Below are positions 3,404-19,874 of a stretch of 28,663 nucleotides of DNA, one piece after another. This stretch comes from a virus: IMG/VR virus record IMGVR_UViG_3300026484_000381, positions 1-28,663 of that record; one strand, 5' to 3'. How positions within the stretch are numbered: the first letter of the stretch is position 1; each line of letters opens with the position of its first letter. Below the pieces are notes generated by a model, which saw nothing but the letters and a program-made list of their open reading frames with translations, did not search any database and had not been told where the DNA came from. A program made the translations under genes and the position numbers.

Positions 3404-3919
3404 ATGACACAAAAAGAAAGAATTGAATATCTTGAAAAATCAAACCAACGATTAAAAAAAGAAGTTCAAAAAATGAGACAGATAATCAAAAATTACAAAT
3501 ATGACGAAATGACAGGATTGCTTCGTAGAGCAGATTTCAATGATAGGTTTGACGAATTATGGTTTTCATACACTGAACATGGACATAGATTCATATTGGC
3601 AATGGTGGATTTAAACGGATTGCATGAGTTGAATCGTGATGTTGATATGAATGCCGGCGATGATTTTATCATTAGCACTGCAAACAAAATCAAAGAATTA
3701 TTTGAAGATAGCAACTCTTTTCGCATTGGCGGTGATGAATTCATGATTCTCAAGCGAGGCAATGATATTGATGATTTTAATGAAAGACTGGAGCAAATTC
3801 CAAATTGTGAAGTCTTCAGTGTAACCACTCAAGAAGGATATGAATCAGAATCTGAAATGTTTAATGCTGTTGATGCTGGCATTATCAAGCAAAAACTAAA
3901 ACACAAGACTGGAAGATAA
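3404..3919 (+). CDS. Small stand-alone GGDEF-domain protein (putative diguanylate cyclase)
   Basis: A 171-residue protein made of a short N-terminal coiled coil (about 5-35) and one GGDEF domain. It keeps DEMTGLLRR at the domain start, the MVDLNG metal-binding aspartate at about D69, the guanine-contacting LN and the GDD aspartate, and an intact IGGDEF signature (GGDEF at about 109-113). There is no RxxD inhibitory site five residues before GGDEF, so no classical product inhibition is expected. The family makes cyclic di-GMP from two GTP, usually as a dimer. No sensory, membrane or EAL domain is present. It could raise c-di-GMP in the infected cell, or be a catalytically altered nucleotide-binding protein. 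It is the second gene of the unit starting with DNA ligase. Confidence 0.85.
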   Translation: MTQKERIEYLEKSNQRLKKEVQKMRQIIKNYKYDEMTGLLRRADFNDRFDELWFSYTEHGHRFILAMVDLNGLHELNRDVDMNAGDDFIISTANKIKELFEDSNSFRIGGDEFMILKRGNDIDDFNERLEQIPNCEVFSVTTQEGYESESEMFNAVDAGIIKQKLKHKTGR

Positions 3920-5062: not shown

Positions 5063-5644
5063 ATGTATTTAATGCCAAGCGTAATAGAAAATGATGGAAG
5101 AGCGAATAAACAATTTGATTTACCAAGCAAATTATTTGATGAGAATATCATCTTATTAGAACACGGGATTGATGATGATTTAGCAGCAATCATAAAAATG
5201 CAACTTCTGTATCTTGATAGTAAAGAGGATTGTAAGGAAATTAATATGTACATCTCAAGTGGCGGAGGTAGTATTTATGCAGGTAACGGTATCATTGATG
5301 TTATGAGACACATCGAAACTCCAGTAAACACCATCTGCACGGGCATCGCAATGAGCATGGGATTGGCTATTTTATCAAGTGGTACCGGGAAAAGAAAAGC
5401 AATGCCTAATAGTAGATTAATGGCGCATAGTTTGGCTGGTGGAACGCAAGGAAAATATCAAGATATGGCTATTGATTTTAAAGAATCTGAGTATTTACAA
5501 GATAAAATGATGAAATTAATGAGTGACAATACAAATGGAAAAACATCTTATGATGAAATGGTAAAATTATGTGATAGAGATTATTTCATGGATCCCGAAG
5601 AATCAATTAGAATAGGTCTCATTGATGAAATCATAGGAAAATAA
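5063..5644 (+). CDS. clpP-like: ClpP-like serine protease, catalytic triad intact
   Basis: A full-length ClpP-type peptidase of 193 residues, the usual ClpP size. It keeps the N-terminal PSVIEND segment, the MYISSGGGSIYAG oxyanion-hole glycine run, Ser98 in GIAMSMG, His122 in LMAHS, and Asp173 in CDRDYFM followed by GLIDEI. These match the Ser/His/Asp triad and its order in bacterial ClpP, which degrades proteins as a tetradecamer fed by ClpX or ClpA. It sits among DNA-metabolism genes with no ATPase partner in view, and not beside capsid genes, so a role as prohead protease is not favoured. It might form mixed or competing complexes with host ClpP. The start follows AAGGAAAAT. Confidence 0.88.
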   Translation: MYLMPSVIENDGRANKQFDLPSKLFDENIILLEHGIDDDLAAIIKMQLLYLDSKEDCKEINMYISSGGGSIYAGNGIIDVMRHIETPVNTICTGIAMSMGLAILSSGTGKRKAMPNSRLMAHSLAGGTQGKYQDMAIDFKESEYLQDKMMKLMSDNTNGKTSYDEMVKLCDRDYFMDPEESIRIGLIDEIIGK

Positions 5645-5653
5645 ACAAAAAAC

Positions 5654-6517
5654 ATGAAAACAAACTTCTTTAGGTACAGTGGGACCAAATTTAATTATGT
5701 CGAAGATGTAAATCTGGTCCTTAATCAGAGCAACAAAAAATACTACATTGAACCTTTTGCTGGTTCAGGTGCTATACTCTTCAATCTAACGAAAAAATTT
5801 GAAAAATATTATATCAATGACATTGATAGAAACATCACCAGAATATACGAGAGTTTTAAGGACCCTTTAAATACCTATGATTATTACAAAAGCAAAATAT
5901 CATTTGTCTTTGAAACCTTCGGTGATATGACAGAAAAACAAAATTATTATAATTTTAGGGATTGGTTTAATGAAAATCACTGGAACTCTAATACCCTTGA
6001 TGAAGGCATTTACCTCCATATGCTAGCAAATTCATGCATAAATTCTATGCTCAGATTTGGTCCTAATGGGATGAACCAGAGTTTTGGAAATAGACATTAT
6101 ACACTTGATTCAAGAAATTTTAAATCAGTGAAGGATAGGCTTCATGATACAGTAATAATGAACGGTCAATATGATAATGTTTTGAATAGCATTGGTAACG
6201 ATATAATCAAAAATTCTTTTTTATTCCTTGATCCTCCTTATTTTTCACAAGGAAGTTCGTATCAAGGATTTAGTGTTCAAGACATAGAAAAATTTATATC
6301 TTTTATCAAAAATGCAGATTTTGACTTTATATATACTGACATTATAAATGAATATAATGAAAACATTTCTGATAAAATTCATAAACATTTTTTTAGGAGT
6401 ATAAATAATACAGCACCTACATCAGACAAGCAGTCAAGAGGCAATCTTGAATATATGTTCACAAACTTAAATGTTCAAATTCTGGAAAAACCTGAAATTG
6501 ATGAAGATGAGTGGTGA
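5654..6517 (+). CDS. dam-like: DNA adenine N6-methyltransferase, Dam/D12 type
   Basis: A 287-residue D12-class methyltransferase. It shows the N-terminal FRYSGTKFNYVEDV motif, the S-adenosylmethionine-binding EPFAGSGAI at about 33-41, and the catalytic DPPY at about 193-196. It lies 9 nt downstream of the ClpP-like gene with only a distant AGGAAAA, so it may be coupled. The family methylates adenine in short palindromic sites such as GATC; T4 Dam is the nearest conceptual match. Its job is probably protecting phage DNA from host restriction. The target specificity cannot be read from the sequence. Confidence 0.88.
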   Translation: MKTNFFRYSGTKFNYVEDVNLVLNQSNKKYYIEPFAGSGAILFNLTKKFEKYYINDIDRNITRIYESFKDPLNTYDYYKSKISFVFETFGDMTEKQNYYNFRDWFNENHWNSNTLDEGIYLHMLANSCINSMLRFGPNGMNQSFGNRHYTLDSRNFKSVKDRLHDTVIMNGQYDNVLNSIGNDIIKNSFLFLDPPYFSQGSSYQGFSVQDIEKFISFIKNADFDFIYTDIINEYNENISDKIHKHFFRSINNTAPTSDKQSRGNLEYMFTNLNVQILEKPEIDEDEW

Positions 6518-10363: not shown

Positions 10364-10371
10364 TATAAATA
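10364..10371 (+). promoter_or_regulatory. T4-type late promoter TATAAATA
   Basis: Perfect octamer 19 nt before the start codon of the Acb1-like gene, with an AAAGGAG site between. In T4 this motif is read by the late sigma factor gp55. Confidence 0.7.
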
Positions 10372-10390: not shown

Positions 10391-11077
10391 ATGGACAAAT
10401 TAAGAACATTCAGTGAATTTATAAGTGAAGGTTTTGAGGTTTCAAATAAGCCTGACGGAACAGGTGAAAATGATAAACCTGAAATTTTTTATCCTGAAGG
10501 TGTTTATATCTCGGTGAAATTATCAGAAGAAACTGAGGCACTTGTTAAGGAATATCAGGAAAAGTATCTTAAAGGTCAAGATATAGTTGATATAAATTCT
10601 TTGCATTGTACTCTTATCTATTCTAAGCAACCAGAAGTTAATGAGATTGAACCAGCAGAATACACGGCAGTTGGAACATTTCAAGAATTCAATCTATTTG
10701 GCGAAAAAAGTGATACACTCGTTGCCGAAATAAATTCTTTTGATTTACTGAGAAGAAATGAGATTTTAACACAGGAATACAAATTTATTTCAGATTTTGA
10801 TGAATACAAATCTCATGTGACATTAGCATATGGTGTAGAAAATATTGATATAAATTCTTTACCTCCTATGGATTTTGGTTTTGTATTTGAGAATGAGACT
10901 GTCGAGCAATTAGACCTTAATTGGGCTGGTTCAGGAGATGACTCTGATAATGAAAGTGGAACTATTGTGGGAAAAGCATTAACGAAAATGAAAAAAGATG
11001 CAGAAAAACCAAAAAAGAAAGATGACGAAGACACTGAAGACACTGAAGACACTGAGAATGATGAAACAGAGGATTAG
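10391..11077 (+). CDS. acb1: Acb1-like 2H phosphodiesterase with capsid-targeting propeptide (putative anti-CBASS, injected)
   Basis: A 228-residue protein with three parts. Residues 1-13 (MDKLRTFSEFISE) match the T4 capsid-targeting propeptide pattern (IPI begins MKTYQEFIAE), with a gp21-type cleavage site I-S-E|G at 13/14. Residues about 36-175 form a 2H phosphoesterase domain: VYISVKL, then SLHCT with His72/Thr74, then KSHVT with His142/Thr144. The two HxT motifs are 70 residues apart, close to the spacing I recall for T4 Acb1 (H44/H113), which cleaves CBASS cyclic oligonucleotides. The last 40 residues are a Lys then Asp/Glu/Thr low-complexity tail from a 9-nt tandem repeat. It is driven by a late promoter and precedes an Acb2-like gene. 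Another 2H function, such as an RNA 2',3'-cyclic phosphodiesterase, remains possible. Confidence 0.7.
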   Translation: MDKLRTFSEFISEGFEVSNKPDGTGENDKPEIFYPEGVYISVKLSEETEALVKEYQEKYLKGQDIVDINSLHCTLIYSKQPEVNEIEPAEYTAVGTFQEFNLFGEKSDTLVAEINSFDLLRRNEILTQEYKFISDFDEYKSHVTLAYGVENIDINSLPPMDFGFVFENETVEQLDLNWAGSGDDSDNESGTIVGKALTKMKKDAEKPKKKDDEDTEDTEDTENDETED

Positions 11078-11085
11078 TATAAATA
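11078..11085 (+). promoter_or_regulatory. T4-type late promoter TATAAATA
   Basis: Perfect octamer just after the stop of the Acb1-like gene and 20 nt before the ATG of the Acb2-like gene, which therefore can be expressed on its own. Confidence 0.65.
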
Positions 11086-11105
11086 ACATAAAATAAAGGA
11101 TAAAT

Positions 11106-11330
11106 ATGAAAGACCAACACACAAAAATCAAAGGATATCGCGATTTAAGTCAAAGTGAAATTGACTTAATGAATAAATGTAAAGAACTTGCGGAGGAAGT
11201 AGGCAAACTATGTGATGAGGTTTCAATGGAGCCTACGACAGACATTAGGTGGCTAGTAGATGGACAAATCACACTTCAGAAAGGCTTTATGAGTTTGATC
11301 CGTAGTATTGCAAAGCCGACTACGTTTTAA
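11106..11330 (+). CDS. acb2: Acb2-like cyclic-nucleotide sponge (putative anti-CBASS)
   Basis: A 74-residue helical-hairpin protein. It starts with HTKIKGYRDLSQSEIDLMN and ends with LQKGFMSLIRSIAKPTTF, with RWLVDGQ in the middle. This matches my memory of the Acb2/Tad1 hairpin-domain family: an H-x-x-I-K-G-Y-R-x-L start, RW...G, and a terminal FM.L.R...PTTF. Acb2 proteins form compact oligomers that bind and hide CBASS cyclic di- and trinucleotides without cleaving them; T4 Vs.4 belongs to this group. The start has an AAAGGA site 6 nt upstream, and a late promoter lies between it and the Acb1-like gene. The identification is from memory of family sequences, not from a search. Confidence 0.78.
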   Translation: MKDQHTKIKGYRDLSQSEIDLMNKCKELAEEVGKLCDEVSMEPTTDIRWLVDGQITLQKGFMSLIRSIAKPTTF

Positions 11331-11340
11331 GGAAACGATA

Positions 11341-11526
11341 ATGAAATGGAAAATTACTCTACAATCAGTCGATAAGCATCAACTGATTGTAGAATGTGAA
11401 GCACCGAATGAACAACAGGCAAATACAATAGCCGATGAGAGGATTATTGAACTTGGATGGGAACACCATCAATACAAATTTTTAAGATTAGATGAAATAT
11501 CAGAAGGAGAAAGCGAAAATGGCTAA
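11341..11526 (+). CDS. Hypothetical protein, 61 aa
   Basis: ATG 11341 follows AAGGAAACGATA, so I take it over the upstream in-frame TTG at 11308. The product (MKWKITLQSVDKHQLIVECEA...) is predicted beta-beta-alpha-beta, ending in an acidic tail, and resembles small nucleic-acid-binding or ferredoxin-like folds only in outline. No family is recognised. It begins 10 nt after the Acb2-like stop and overlaps the next gene by 8 nt, so it is likely co-expressed with the anti-CBASS pair. Confidence 0.55.
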   Translation: MKWKITLQSVDKHQLIVECEAPNEQQANTIADERIIELGWEHHQYKFLRLDEISEGESENG

Positions 11527-11836
11527 GAGTACAAAAGAATTAGATAAAATAAAAGAACCTCGGGTTCTTCAAAATGCATTTAAAGAAGTTCAAAAGGATA
11601 ATGAGTTTGTTACAGAAATTTTAAGGGATGTAACAGGAATAAATCTTAGTGAACAGGAAATAACCAAACTTAAGGTTATGCTCAGATACGAGACAAAGGG
11701 TACATTATTTGACAGTATAACAGAGATTTACAGACTTGTAGCAGGAAATTTCAAATCTCCCGAAAAAGTTATTGTAATACCTTATATCGATGGAAAACAA
11801 ATGGAGCATATCAATATTCAAAGAATTGGTTATTAA
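11519..11836 (+). CDS. Hypothetical protein, 105 aa
   Basis: ATG 11519 is preceded by GAAGGAGAAAG and overlaps the upstream gene by 8 nt. The ORF could begin at 11492 but that start has no better site. The protein is helical for about 80 residues, with a DVTGINLSEQEITKLKVMLRYETKG segment, and ends in a short strand-rich piece (VIVIPYIDGKQ). No motif is recognised. Its position directly after the putative anti-defence pair makes it a candidate for another counter-defence or regulatory factor, by association only. Confidence 0.6.
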   Translation: MAKSTKELDKIKEPRVLQNAFKEVQKDNEFVTEILRDVTGINLSEQEITKLKVMLRYETKGTLFDSITEIYRLVAGNFKSPEKVIVIPYIDGKQMEHINIQRIGY

Positions 11837-11860: not shown

Positions 11861-12274
11861 ATGTCCTACAAAAGCACTCTAAAAGAACTATATTCAAAGA
11901 AAATGTTCCCATATAAAGTATGGTATATTTTGCTTGAGGATATAGATTACAAAGCAAATGAAATTTTTGATATTGCTCATAATGCAGCAATAGAGCCTTT
12001 TTATTCTGAAAATCTGAGAAGGTTATGGGATATGGGTGAGAATCAGATAGAAAAAAGAATGATGTACAATATGTCATTCCTTGATAAGCTTGAGGCATTT
12101 TTGATAAAAAATGGGATATACTTTAATTGGATTATGAGAAATAATGAGTATATAGGCATCAGGATTCAGCCCTCATTGGTAGATTTTAATGGCATTTTGA
12201 AGGACTGTATGACATTTGAGGAATTTTCGTGGAATAGGTTTTACATGAATGTAGAGAATAAAAGTGGCAGGTAA
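11861..12274 (+). CDS. Hypothetical protein, 137 aa
   Basis: It starts behind CAAAGGAAAACT. The sequence is rich in aromatic residues (Tyr, Trp, Phe) and Asn, with predicted helices, and contains DIDYKANEIFDIAHNAA and FYSENLRRLWDMGENQIEKR. No catalytic signature, membrane segment or known family is recognised. It is the last gene before a change of promoter at 12344, and a 117-nt gap follows that contains a 12-bp inverted repeat. Confidence 0.6.
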   Translation: MSYKSTLKELYSKKMFPYKVWYILLEDIDYKANEIFDIAHNAAIEPFYSENLRRLWDMGENQIEKRMMYNMSFLDKLEAFLIKNGIYFNWIMRNNEYIGIRIQPSLVDFNGILKDCMTFEEFSWNRFYMNVENKSGR

Positions 12275-16603: not shown

Positions 16604-16631
16604 TTAATTATTTATATATACTATACTTCAG
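16604..16631. repeat. 28-bp direct repeat, copy 1 (flanks homing gene)
   Basis: 25 of 28 positions match 17401-17428. This copy contains the intact late octamer and covers the last codons of the homing endonuclease gene. Confidence 0.75.
16609..16616 (-). promoter_or_regulatory. T4-type late promoter TATAAATA (minus strand), distal promoter of gp15
   Basis: Perfect octamer lying just downstream of the homing gene stop, inside one copy of a 28-bp repeat whose other copy lies upstream of that gene. Confidence 0.6.
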
Positions 16632-17352
16632 CCTGTTTAAGAATATTCTCAGTGAATAACTCTGTATTTCCTGCTCCCAAAATATTTGGGCCTTTATATT
16701 GAAACTCTTTATTTTCTTTTAGTATTTTATACTCTTTTTTGAATGCTTTCGAACCATCTTCAAAAAGTTCTTCAAAGATAATTTCTATATTTTCTAATTC
16801 AGATTTAGAAAATCTTTCTTTTACTGACCTTTTAGTTATTCCTATTTTGTATAAGTTTTCTTTCTTTAATCTAATATAATAAAGGATTGTAGGTATATTT
16901 TTATGCCTATCTGAGGTCCAACTTATTTCTTTTTCTCTTGATAAGTATGAGCATTTCTCACAGGTTCTTCCCAAATTATGATTATAAGGAAGTTGCTCAA
17001 AAATACCATGTTCTTTGCAAATTATCTTTACTTTAGTGTGAGAATCCACATAATGCACAAGTGAGTAATCATATAAATCTCCGTGAACTTCCTTAGCCTT
17101 TTTGATAAATGATTCTGTATCATGCACTTTTCCTGAATTTATTTCTTTAAGTTTGTTTGAGCATTTTACTGAACAACATTCATTATAACCTCTTTTGAAG
17201 CCATGATATTTTACTTCGTTATTGCATATTTTACAAGTTGGTTTTTCTATGTTATGGTATGTTAAATATAATTCTTCTGATGTTATATTATATTTCTTTA
17301 GTTTTGAAGAAGAAATCCTTCCCTTTGAGTCTTGGTATTTCTGTAAGTCCAT
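16621..17352 (-). CDS. Free-standing GIY-YIG-type homing endonuclease
   Basis: I take ATG 17352 (GGAG 6 nt upstream); an ATG at 17364 is in frame but its site is poorer. The N-terminal part has Cys pairs (CKIC, CCSVKC) suggesting a zinc knuckle. The middle has the F-x-x-K-A-x-x-V-H-G-D-x-Y-D-Y-S module with C-K-E-H-G-I-F-E-Q and C-E-K-C, known from phage homing proteins. The C-terminal nuclease-like part has TILYYIRL, LYKIGITKRSVKERF, a Glu in KKEYKIL, and GNTELF. This follows the GIY-YIG/T5orf172 order. Such enzymes cut cognate genomes lacking the gene and spread it by repair. It lies between the tail tube genes and gp15, flanked by repeats, and is homologous to the gene at 19167. Confidence 0.82.
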   Translation of the reverse strand: MDLQKYQDSKGRISSSKLKKYNITSEELYLTYHNIEKPTCKICNNEVKYHGFKRGYNECCSVKCSNKLKEINSGKVHDTESFIKKAKEVHGDLYDYSLVHYVDSHTKVKIICKEHGIFEQLPYNHNLGRTCEKCSYLSREKEISWTSDRHKNIPTILYYIRLKKENLYKIGITKRSVKERFSKSELENIEIIFEELFEDGSKAFKKEYKILKENKEFQYKGPNILGAGNTELFTENILKQAEV

Positions 17353-17380
17353 TTTTATCTCCATTTTTAAGAAATAAAGT

Positions 17381-18656: not shown

Positions 18657-19166
18657 CTAAAATGTCTGTACATAATTACATTTCATTTGCACTGTAAATT
18701 CTGCAATACTAGCAATTGCAGAATTATCAAGGTTTGCACCACCAACAGCAACCAGCAAGCAATCCTTAAATTCTACAATTTTGATGAAATCAGTGGGATC
18801 AAAATCATCGGCTGTGTATATACTAATATCAAATTTTGTGTCATTTGGATATTCTCTCAAGAAATCCTGAATTGCTTTTGCCCACATTCTATACAGTGTA
18901 AAATTACTATAATCTTTAAAGCCTATAGAAATTTGATATGCCTCCAGCCTTCCGCTACTATATACCCATTCCTCCCCAATATAAGCCTCTATGGGAGTTT
19001 GATTAATATCAGCAAGTTGGATGCCTGTACAAGACATACTCAATAATTTTGGATCAACATCTGCCAAGCCTGATTTTTCGGCACCTGGACCTGTGAAAGT
19101 GATCTGAAACTTACTGGGATCTTGCCATTTGACATTTTTGGCATCTATATTCATTGGACCTGACAT
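18657..19166 (-). CDS. Tail tube-like protein (diverged gp19 paralog 3)
   Basis: 169 residues beginning MSGPMNIDAKNVKW. The order of features follows the two downstream paralogs (C-x-G-I-Q-L early, then E-E-W-V-Y-S-S-G-R-L-E-A-Y-Q-I-S-I-G-F, a helix with Y-R-M-W, and C-terminal strands ending in F-T-V-Q-M-K-C), but identity is low. I infer a tube-fold protein, perhaps a ring at the tail end or a second tube type. The start codon directly abuts the stop of the homing gene upstream, and its first six codons and ribosome binding site are duplicated at the start of that gene. Confidence 0.65.
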   Translation of the reverse strand: MSGPMNIDAKNVKWQDPSKFQITFTGPGAEKSGLADVDPKLLSMSCTGIQLADINQTPIEAYIGEEWVYSSGRLEAYQISIGFKDYSNFTLYRMWAKAIQDFLREYPNDTKFDISIYTADDFDPTDFIKIVEFKDCLLVAVGGANLDNSAIASIAEFTVQMKCNYVQTF

Positions 19167-19179
19167 TTAATACTCTCCT
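19150..19179. repeat. 30-bp direct repeat, copy 1 (start of tube paralog 3)
   Basis: 29 of 30 positions match 19858-19887. It covers the ribosome binding site, start codon and first codons (MSGPMN) of the tube-like gene, and the last codons of the homing gene. Confidence 0.85.
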
Positions 19180-19874
19180 TTTAGAACATCTTTGTAAAAT
19201 ATCTCTGTGTTTCCACCTATAAGTATATTTTCATTTATCCTATATTTTTTATTATTTTTTATTATTTTTTGCTCTTTTTCTAAAGCACACTCGCCATTTT
19301 CAAATATTTCTTCTAATAATATATCGTATTTTATTTTATCATATTTATATCTTAAATGCACATTGTTTAGTGTTAAACCTATTTTATACCTTATGCCAAC
19401 AGCAGAAAAAATCTTTATATAATATAGGATGGTTTTTCTTCCTTTATATGTATCAATAGAATTAACTTTATATCCCGCGTCTTTGCCACATTGAGGACAA
19501 CCATGTTTAGAAAAATATACTCTATTGGGAGATTTGTGAAATTCTCCATGAAGGGGACAATTAAACCTCATTTTGCTTTTGGAGCCAATGAAATGTTCTT
19601 TATTAAATGAAAATTTATTGTTAAATTTTATATTAATGTTATTCAAAATATTTATTGCTTTTTTGTCTCTATTCAATAATGAGCACTTTTTGCATGGTAT
19701 TTTCGATTGTATATGATTATTTGGTGTTTGTTCGAACTCACCGTGCACAGGACATATTATAATACTTCTAGTGCGATAACCTTTATACTCAAATTTAGTG
19801 TAATCATATGTATTTCCATGCAGGACTTTAGATTTGGTGATAAATTGTTCTTTTGTGTTCATTGGTCCTGACAT
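19167..19874 (-). CDS. Free-standing GIY-YIG-type homing endonuclease using a captured tail-gene start
   Basis: A 235-residue relative of the gene at 16621. It has two H-G-E-F zinc modules (F-I-T-K-S-K-V-L-H-G-N-T-Y-D-Y-T with C-P-V-H-G-E-F and C-K-K-C; then C-P-L-H-G-E-F and C-P-Q-C). A GIY-YIG-like C-terminus follows (TILYYIKI, RYKIGLT, E-K-E-Q-K-I-I, GGNTEIF). Its first six residues, MSGPMN, are those of the tail-tube-like protein downstream, and its stop TAA is directly followed by that protein's ATG. The insert length equals the ORF length (708 bp), so it sits precisely between duplicated start regions. It has a late promoter, so it should be expressed with structural genes. Confidence 0.85.
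   Translation of the reverse strand: MSGPMNTKEQFITKSKVLHGNTYDYTKFEYKGYRTRSIIICPVHGEFEQTPNNHIQSKIPCKKCSLLNRDKKAINILNNINIKFNNKFSFNKEHFIGSKSKMRFNCPLHGEFHKSPNRVYFSKHGCPQCGKDAGYKVNSIDTYKGRKTILYYIKIFSAVGIRYKIGLTLNNVHLRYKYDKIKYDILLEEIFENGECALEKEQKIIKNNKKYRINENILIGGNTEIFYKDVLKGEY

Follow-up and report, generated by a model that had tools for sequence, protein, structure and literature searches.

The window, a 28,663-base stretch of viral DNA that makes up the entire IMG/VR record IMGVR_UViG_3300026484_000381, carries the genes for an Acb1-like nuclease and an Acb2-like sponge side by side, and the nuclease begins with a capsid-targeting-like peptide. Acb1 cleaves, and Acb2 sequesters, the cyclic oligonucleotides that activate CBASS effectors. 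The reading we favour, with a probability of roughly 0.57, is that the pair is a two-gene anti-CBASS cassette of a T4-like phage in which Acb1 is packaged in the virion and Acb2 is a product of the infected cell.

The window represents part of a T4-like myovirus genome, with genes for DNA ligase and ribonucleotide reductase, tRNAs and a tail module. Megablast of the window revealed no close DNA relative among isolated phages; by DNA ligase and Acb1, Vibrio phages, pv27 and Va1 among them, are the nearest isolates (< 50% protein identity). The closest relative is L002, in which the acb1-acb2 pair is also found (86% identity for Acb1 and 82% for Acb2). Throughout, results were obtained with a simple gene caller and incomplete virus records, and related sequences are included in the tests. 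Also encoded in the window are an SPFH/Band 7 protein (12-641, +), a ClpP-type protease (5063-5644, +) and a D12 adenine methyltransferase (5654-6517, +). Two homing-endonuclease-like genes (16621-17364 and 19167-19874, both on the minus strand; T5orf172 below the cut-off, DUF723) lie between tail genes, and the second has the start MSGPMN in common with the adjacent tail gene (18657-19166). The features of the acb1-acb2 region are as follows.

10364-10371 (+): T4-type late promoter box TATAAATA, exact consensus, 19 nt before the acb1 start
10391-11077 (+): acb1, 228 aa, 2H phosphodiesterase with predicted cyclic-oligonucleotide cleavage (PF23474, PDB 7t26)
10391-10429 (+): capsid-targeting-like N-terminal peptide MDKLRTFSEFISE of Acb1, with the IPII/IPIII spacing and a predicted prohead-protease cut at E13/G14
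10430-10498 (+): flexible linker, residues 14-36 (pLDDT about 54-59 over residues 11-30; dN/dS 0.29)
10499-10930 (+): Acb1 2H domain, residues 37-180 (pLDDT mostly > 90; dN/dS 0.064)
10604-10612 (+): first catalytic motif, H72-C-T74 (H invariant and T nearly invariant in 50 relatives)
10814-10822 (+): second catalytic motif, H142-V-T144 (H invariant and T nearly invariant in 50 relatives)
10931-11074 (+): charged, flexible C-terminal tail of Acb1 (from the model and comparison with L002)
11078-11085 (+): T4-type late promoter box TATAAATA, exact consensus, 20 nt before the acb2 start
11106-11330 (+): acb2, 74 aa, predicted cyclic di-/trinucleotide sponge (PF24729; PDB p26)
11341-11526 (+): 61-aa ORF in a variable slot after acb2, its C-terminal end weakly alike to an L002 ORF at the same place
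11519-11836 (+): 105-aa conserved lineage gene (71% to L003; also in relatives without acb2)
11861-12274 (+): 137-aa conserved lineage gene (53% to L003; also in relatives without acb2)

An initial annotation of this DNA had described a protein with HxT motifs at H72 and H142, followed at once by a 74-residue protein, and had called them Acb1-like and Acb2-like. Both reading frames (10391-11077 and 11106-11330, +) and both motifs were found as described, and homology together with purifying selection relative to L002 indicates that both genes are real. The 228-aa protein matched the Acb1 family PF23474 with an E of 7.8e-26 (91 bits, cut-off 27) and, by sequence, the solved FBB1 Acb1 (PDB 7t26, E 2.4e-7). 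When its structure was modelled with AlphaFold2 on a 50-sequence alignment and the model compared with solved folds by Foldseek, 7t26 was the best match (E 1.1e-9, TM 0.84), ahead of LigT (E 1.4e-5, TM about 0.59).

The fold in common with LigT, and the label 'RNA ligase' carried by 57B homologues in GenBank and PHROG 755, might suggest an RNA ligase or tRNA phosphodiesterase rather than an anti-CBASS enzyme. This identity was rejected as very improbable, since both Pfam scores and Foldseek favour Acb1: the 2'-5' RNA ligase family PF13563 reached only 11.8 bits (E 0.25) against 91 for Acb1, and 7t26 is the closest fold. Also against it, E172 and the domain-end W178, six residues C-terminal of it, were invariant in a seven-sequence alignment. 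From that alignment E172 was mapped by hand to E141 of FBB1 Acb1, the residue that reads adenine (PMC10419184).

The window protein thus has the 2H fold, two HxT motifs, adenine-contact Glu and domain-end Trp in common with T4 Acb1 (gp57B) and FBB1 Acb1 (7t26, 7t27), with 27% identity to T4 57B in the alignment. Unlike them, it has an extra 36-residue N-terminal extension, which includes the capsid-targeting-like peptide, and a charged C-terminal tail. Its gene follows nrdB, whereas in T4 it follows 57A. Comparison of the window with L002 (dN/dS values above) indicates purifying selection on the enzyme domain, while the linker is the fastest-changing part of the protein. In L002 the tail is extended by about 260 residues to give a 463-aa protein (L002:4771-6162). 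This C-terminal part showed no family and no phage match, and may be a second cargo domain that follows the same head signal.

The 74-aa protein has the start (IKGYRDLSQSEIDLMN) and end (LQKGFMSLIRSIAKPTTF) initially reported for it. Profile searches matched it to Acb2 (Acb2/Tad1 hairpin domain, PF24729, E 4.2e-12, 46.5 bits, cut-off 27) and to solved Acb2 (p26, PDB 8h2j/8ixz, E 9e-16). G10-Y11-R12, K26 and R66 were invariant in 14 Acb2 sequences; Y11 and K26 are presumably ligand residues. In common with Acb2 of other phages (PaMx33 gp24/PaP2 p26, 8h2j, 8ixz; T4 Vs.4) are the IKGYRDLS..EID start, the C-terminal hairpin and Y11, K26 and R66. A length of 74 residues is that of many phage homologues, and the loop between the two long helices is shorter than in p26. 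Purifying selection was again evident relative to L002 (dN/dS 0.085, with dS near saturation). Judged by these matches, the two proteins almost certainly belong to the Acb1 and Acb2 families, and by homology very probably have the corresponding biochemical activities.

Unlike the acb2 genes of those phages, that of the window lies directly 3' of acb1, on the same (+) strand and with a gap of 28 nt. The proposal that this phage carries an enzyme and a sponge side by side therefore stands as far as the pair is concerned. As a strategy it was already known, since both genes are present in T4 (63.1 and 74.0 kb, about 10.6 kb apart), and both proteins have been shown to act against CBASS (PMC11722364; PMC12657218). 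The two genes also occur, far apart, in Acinetobacter phage Ac42 and Aeromonas phage 25. A survey of related phages for the pair, suggested at the same time, found it again in L002; among approximately 80 Acb1 and 110 Acb2 loci flanked by up to 4-6 kb, the two genes were within reach of each other only there and in the window (the 10.6-kb spacing of T4 was visible in a longer stretch). It is the adjacency of acb1 and acb2, and not the strategy, that is new.

In the relative L003, acb1 stands without acb2 and is followed by the same 105-aa and 137-aa genes, indicating that acb2 and the 61-aa ORF occupy a variable slot. The genes starting at 11341, 11519 and 11861 had been put forward as possible further counter-defence factors. 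This found no support: none of the 61-, 105- and 137-aa proteins had a family match in Pfam, PHROGs, NCBIfam or PADLOC, deeper searches with the downstream genes found only two to four relatives, and as the 105- and 137-aa genes are kept in relatives without acb2, nothing marks them as counter-defence.

Each gene had also been credited with a late promoter of its own, in agreement with the TATAAATA box upstream of both, which from its consensus is predicted to be a late promoter. The box is over-represented in the window (14 copies compared with 5.0 expected; 0 of 100 shuffles reached 14). Both boxes are kept in L002, where the bases around the acb1 box differ. Late expression suits a protein destined for packaging, as proposed for Acb1, and in the case of Acb2 it agrees with a role at a later stage of infection.

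The N-terminus of Acb1, MDKLRTFSEFISE/G (a slash marks the actual or predicted cut site), was not remarked on in the initial annotation. T4 internal proteins are directed into the prohead core by a signal at their N-terminus, which the prohead protease removes by cutting after Glu, and mutagenesis of IPIII has shown that residues 4 and 7 serve targeting and residues 8 and 10 processing (PMC9026906). In the window, RTFSEFISE/G fits this signal pattern (aromatic residues at 4 and 7, Ile/Leu at 8, Glu at 10, then a small residue) and is spaced like the T4 IPII/IPIII signal MKTYQEFIAE/A. T4 IPI starts with MKTFKEFTSTTTPVSTITE/A, its cut site being taken from the published propeptide length. In the model the peptide forms a separate short helix (residues 7-13) on the flexible linker, outside the enzyme fold. 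No prohead protease was seen in the window itself, because the fragment lacks capsid genes; a homologue was found in pv27.

Common to the window gene and T4 IPI, IPII, IPIII and Alt are the N-terminal signal (F/Y-x-x-F/Y-I-x-E, then A or G), a late box and the acb1 neighbourhood. The cargo differs: IPI-III inhibit GmrSD restriction enzymes and RNA polymerase is modified by Alt, whereas in the window it is a cyclic-oligonucleotide nuclease whose packaging is predicted.

L002 retains the signal, and so does L003 with other letters (MVTFRQYITE/N); in L003, acb1 is coupled to an upstream signal-bearing gene (MQKFSEYISE/K) behind its own late box. Acb1 of the Vibrio phages pv27 and Va1 has a longer, IPI-like signal, MKPKSFREHLNQTSTDFITE/A, ending in FITE/A, and that of phiAS5 starts with MIRSFSEFITE/A (annotated start). 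Two more Acb1 proteins (L096 and L160) also match the pattern. It is absent from Acb1 of the close relatives L083 and L275 and from T-even Acb1, and many of the distant Acb1 proteins start with different short hydrophobic segments. On the Acb1 tree, the distribution of the signal requires six changes, of which well-supported branches force at least four (this is a quick tree with many weak forks).

In T4, acb1 (57B) is immediately followed by ipI, and in several T-even relatives the corresponding position is taken by signal-bearing genes. In L275 three signal-bearing genes lie just 3' of its acb1, 105-aa, 137-aa and 80-aa genes (L275:4880-7311; MTTFKEYINE/A, MKTFKEYVNE/K and MKNFKDYITE/S), forming a candidate internal-protein locus. 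A plausible origin of the signal on acb1 is recombination with a neighbouring internal-protein signal.

Applied strictly to the 245 called genes of T4, the pattern picked out IPII and IPIII alone; looser gene calling added gp61.1 and one antisense ORF. Across eight genomes it was enriched at N-termini compared with internal Met positions (17/1354 versus 9/4556, p 4e-6). Acb1 genes were over-represented among the matches, at 4/8 compared with 13/1346 other genes (p 1e-6), or 3/7 when the window and L002 were counted once (p 5e-5), in tests that leave part of the sequence relatedness out of account. Across a broader collection of 82 loci, whose starts were set automatically, enrichment was weaker (5/56 Acb1 versus 23/1288 others, p 0.005), partly because many of the 'other' matches are internal-protein-like genes beside acb1 in T-even relatives.

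Carriers of the pattern include IPII, IPIII and an Alt-like ADP-ribosyltransferase, and also function-unknown genes such as that for T4 gp61.1, so carrying the pattern need not signify packaging in every case. The ADP-ribosyltransferase, a 692-aa protein of pv27 (PF03496, E 5.7e-12), is of the class of T4's packaged Alt and is likely an Alt-type ejected protein. Its gene (L069:15936-18014; OR413349 55918-58014) is annotated 'hypothetical protein' and adjoins that for endolysin. T4 gp61.1 (54 aa, L058:18966-19130) starts with MKTFKEFIKE, a signal of the IP type, and is possibly an unrecognised packaged protein; a small protein similar to it is encoded in pv27 (147266-147451).

We propose that Acb1 would be made late, taken into the prohead core, trimmed after E13 by the prohead protease and ejected together with the DNA, so that the next cell would receive a ready-made nuclease before any phage gene is expressed. 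There it would linearise 3'-5' cyclic oligonucleotides that contain adenosine, as a 2H phosphodiesterase independent of metals. Acb2, predicted to be a small hexameric sponge for cyclic di- and trinucleotides and devoid of the signal, would be synthesised in the infected cell and bind those signals that are poor substrates for Acb1 or appear at a later stage. Packaging and ejection of the window Acb1 seem to us somewhat better than an even bet, and we lean to the same degree towards Acb1 of several T4-like lineages being a virion-packaged, ejected anti-CBASS nuclease backed by a cell-made sponge. In the papers that were searched, there was no report of packaged Acb1 and no virion proteome of this phage, its closest relatives or Aeh1/phiAS5-like phages.

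A serious competitor, to which we give less than even odds, is that Acb1 and Acb2 are both ordinary intracellular late counter-defence proteins and that the segment at the N-terminus of Acb1 extends the protein harmlessly and plays no part in packaging. In its favour, T4 Acb1 functions without such a signal, L083 and L275 are without it, many distant Acb1 proteins bear short hydrophobic segments of another kind, and if CBASS is triggered late, late expression might be enough on its own. Against this, the exact four-residue spacing is kept between L003 and the window while the letters differ, and the pattern is enriched at N-termini and occurs on known packaged classes (IPII, IPIII, Alt-like).

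It is unlikely that the families are right and their main target is another nucleotide system, such as type III CRISPR cA3 or the level of cyclic dinucleotides of phage or host. Acb2 binds cA3 and cAAG (PMC12043709), and a GGDEF-type cyclase is encoded by the same phage; the best-studied members of the two families, however, act on CBASS. Acb1 requires adenosine in its substrate (PMC10419184), and c-di-GMP would therefore not be cut.

The GGDEF (diguanylate cyclase) domain protein has 171 aa (3404-3919, +; PF00990, E 5.4e-13) and an intact RIGGDEF motif. It is 71% identical over its full length to a protein of a relative (G001, locus L080), and weak relatives occur in only 13 of 50,697 phage records and in none of the T4-like isolates. 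The phage may make one cyclic dinucleotide and have proteins against others.

Counter-measures of phages against CBASS are thought of as made after infection begins. If a head-packaging signal on Acb1 is widespread among T4-like phages, the enzyme would be there at the outset, before the alarm nucleotide builds up. Injected counter-defence of the T4 type would then be directed not only at restriction enzymes (IPI-III) but also at immune signalling by nucleotides, and the tree would imply at least four gains or losses of the capsid-targeting signal on Acb1. The combination of a capsid-targeting signal with a counter-defence domain gives a sequence rule by which other injected counter-defence proteins may be sought, and the adjacent enzyme and sponge provide a compact natural cassette for studying cutting together with sequestering.
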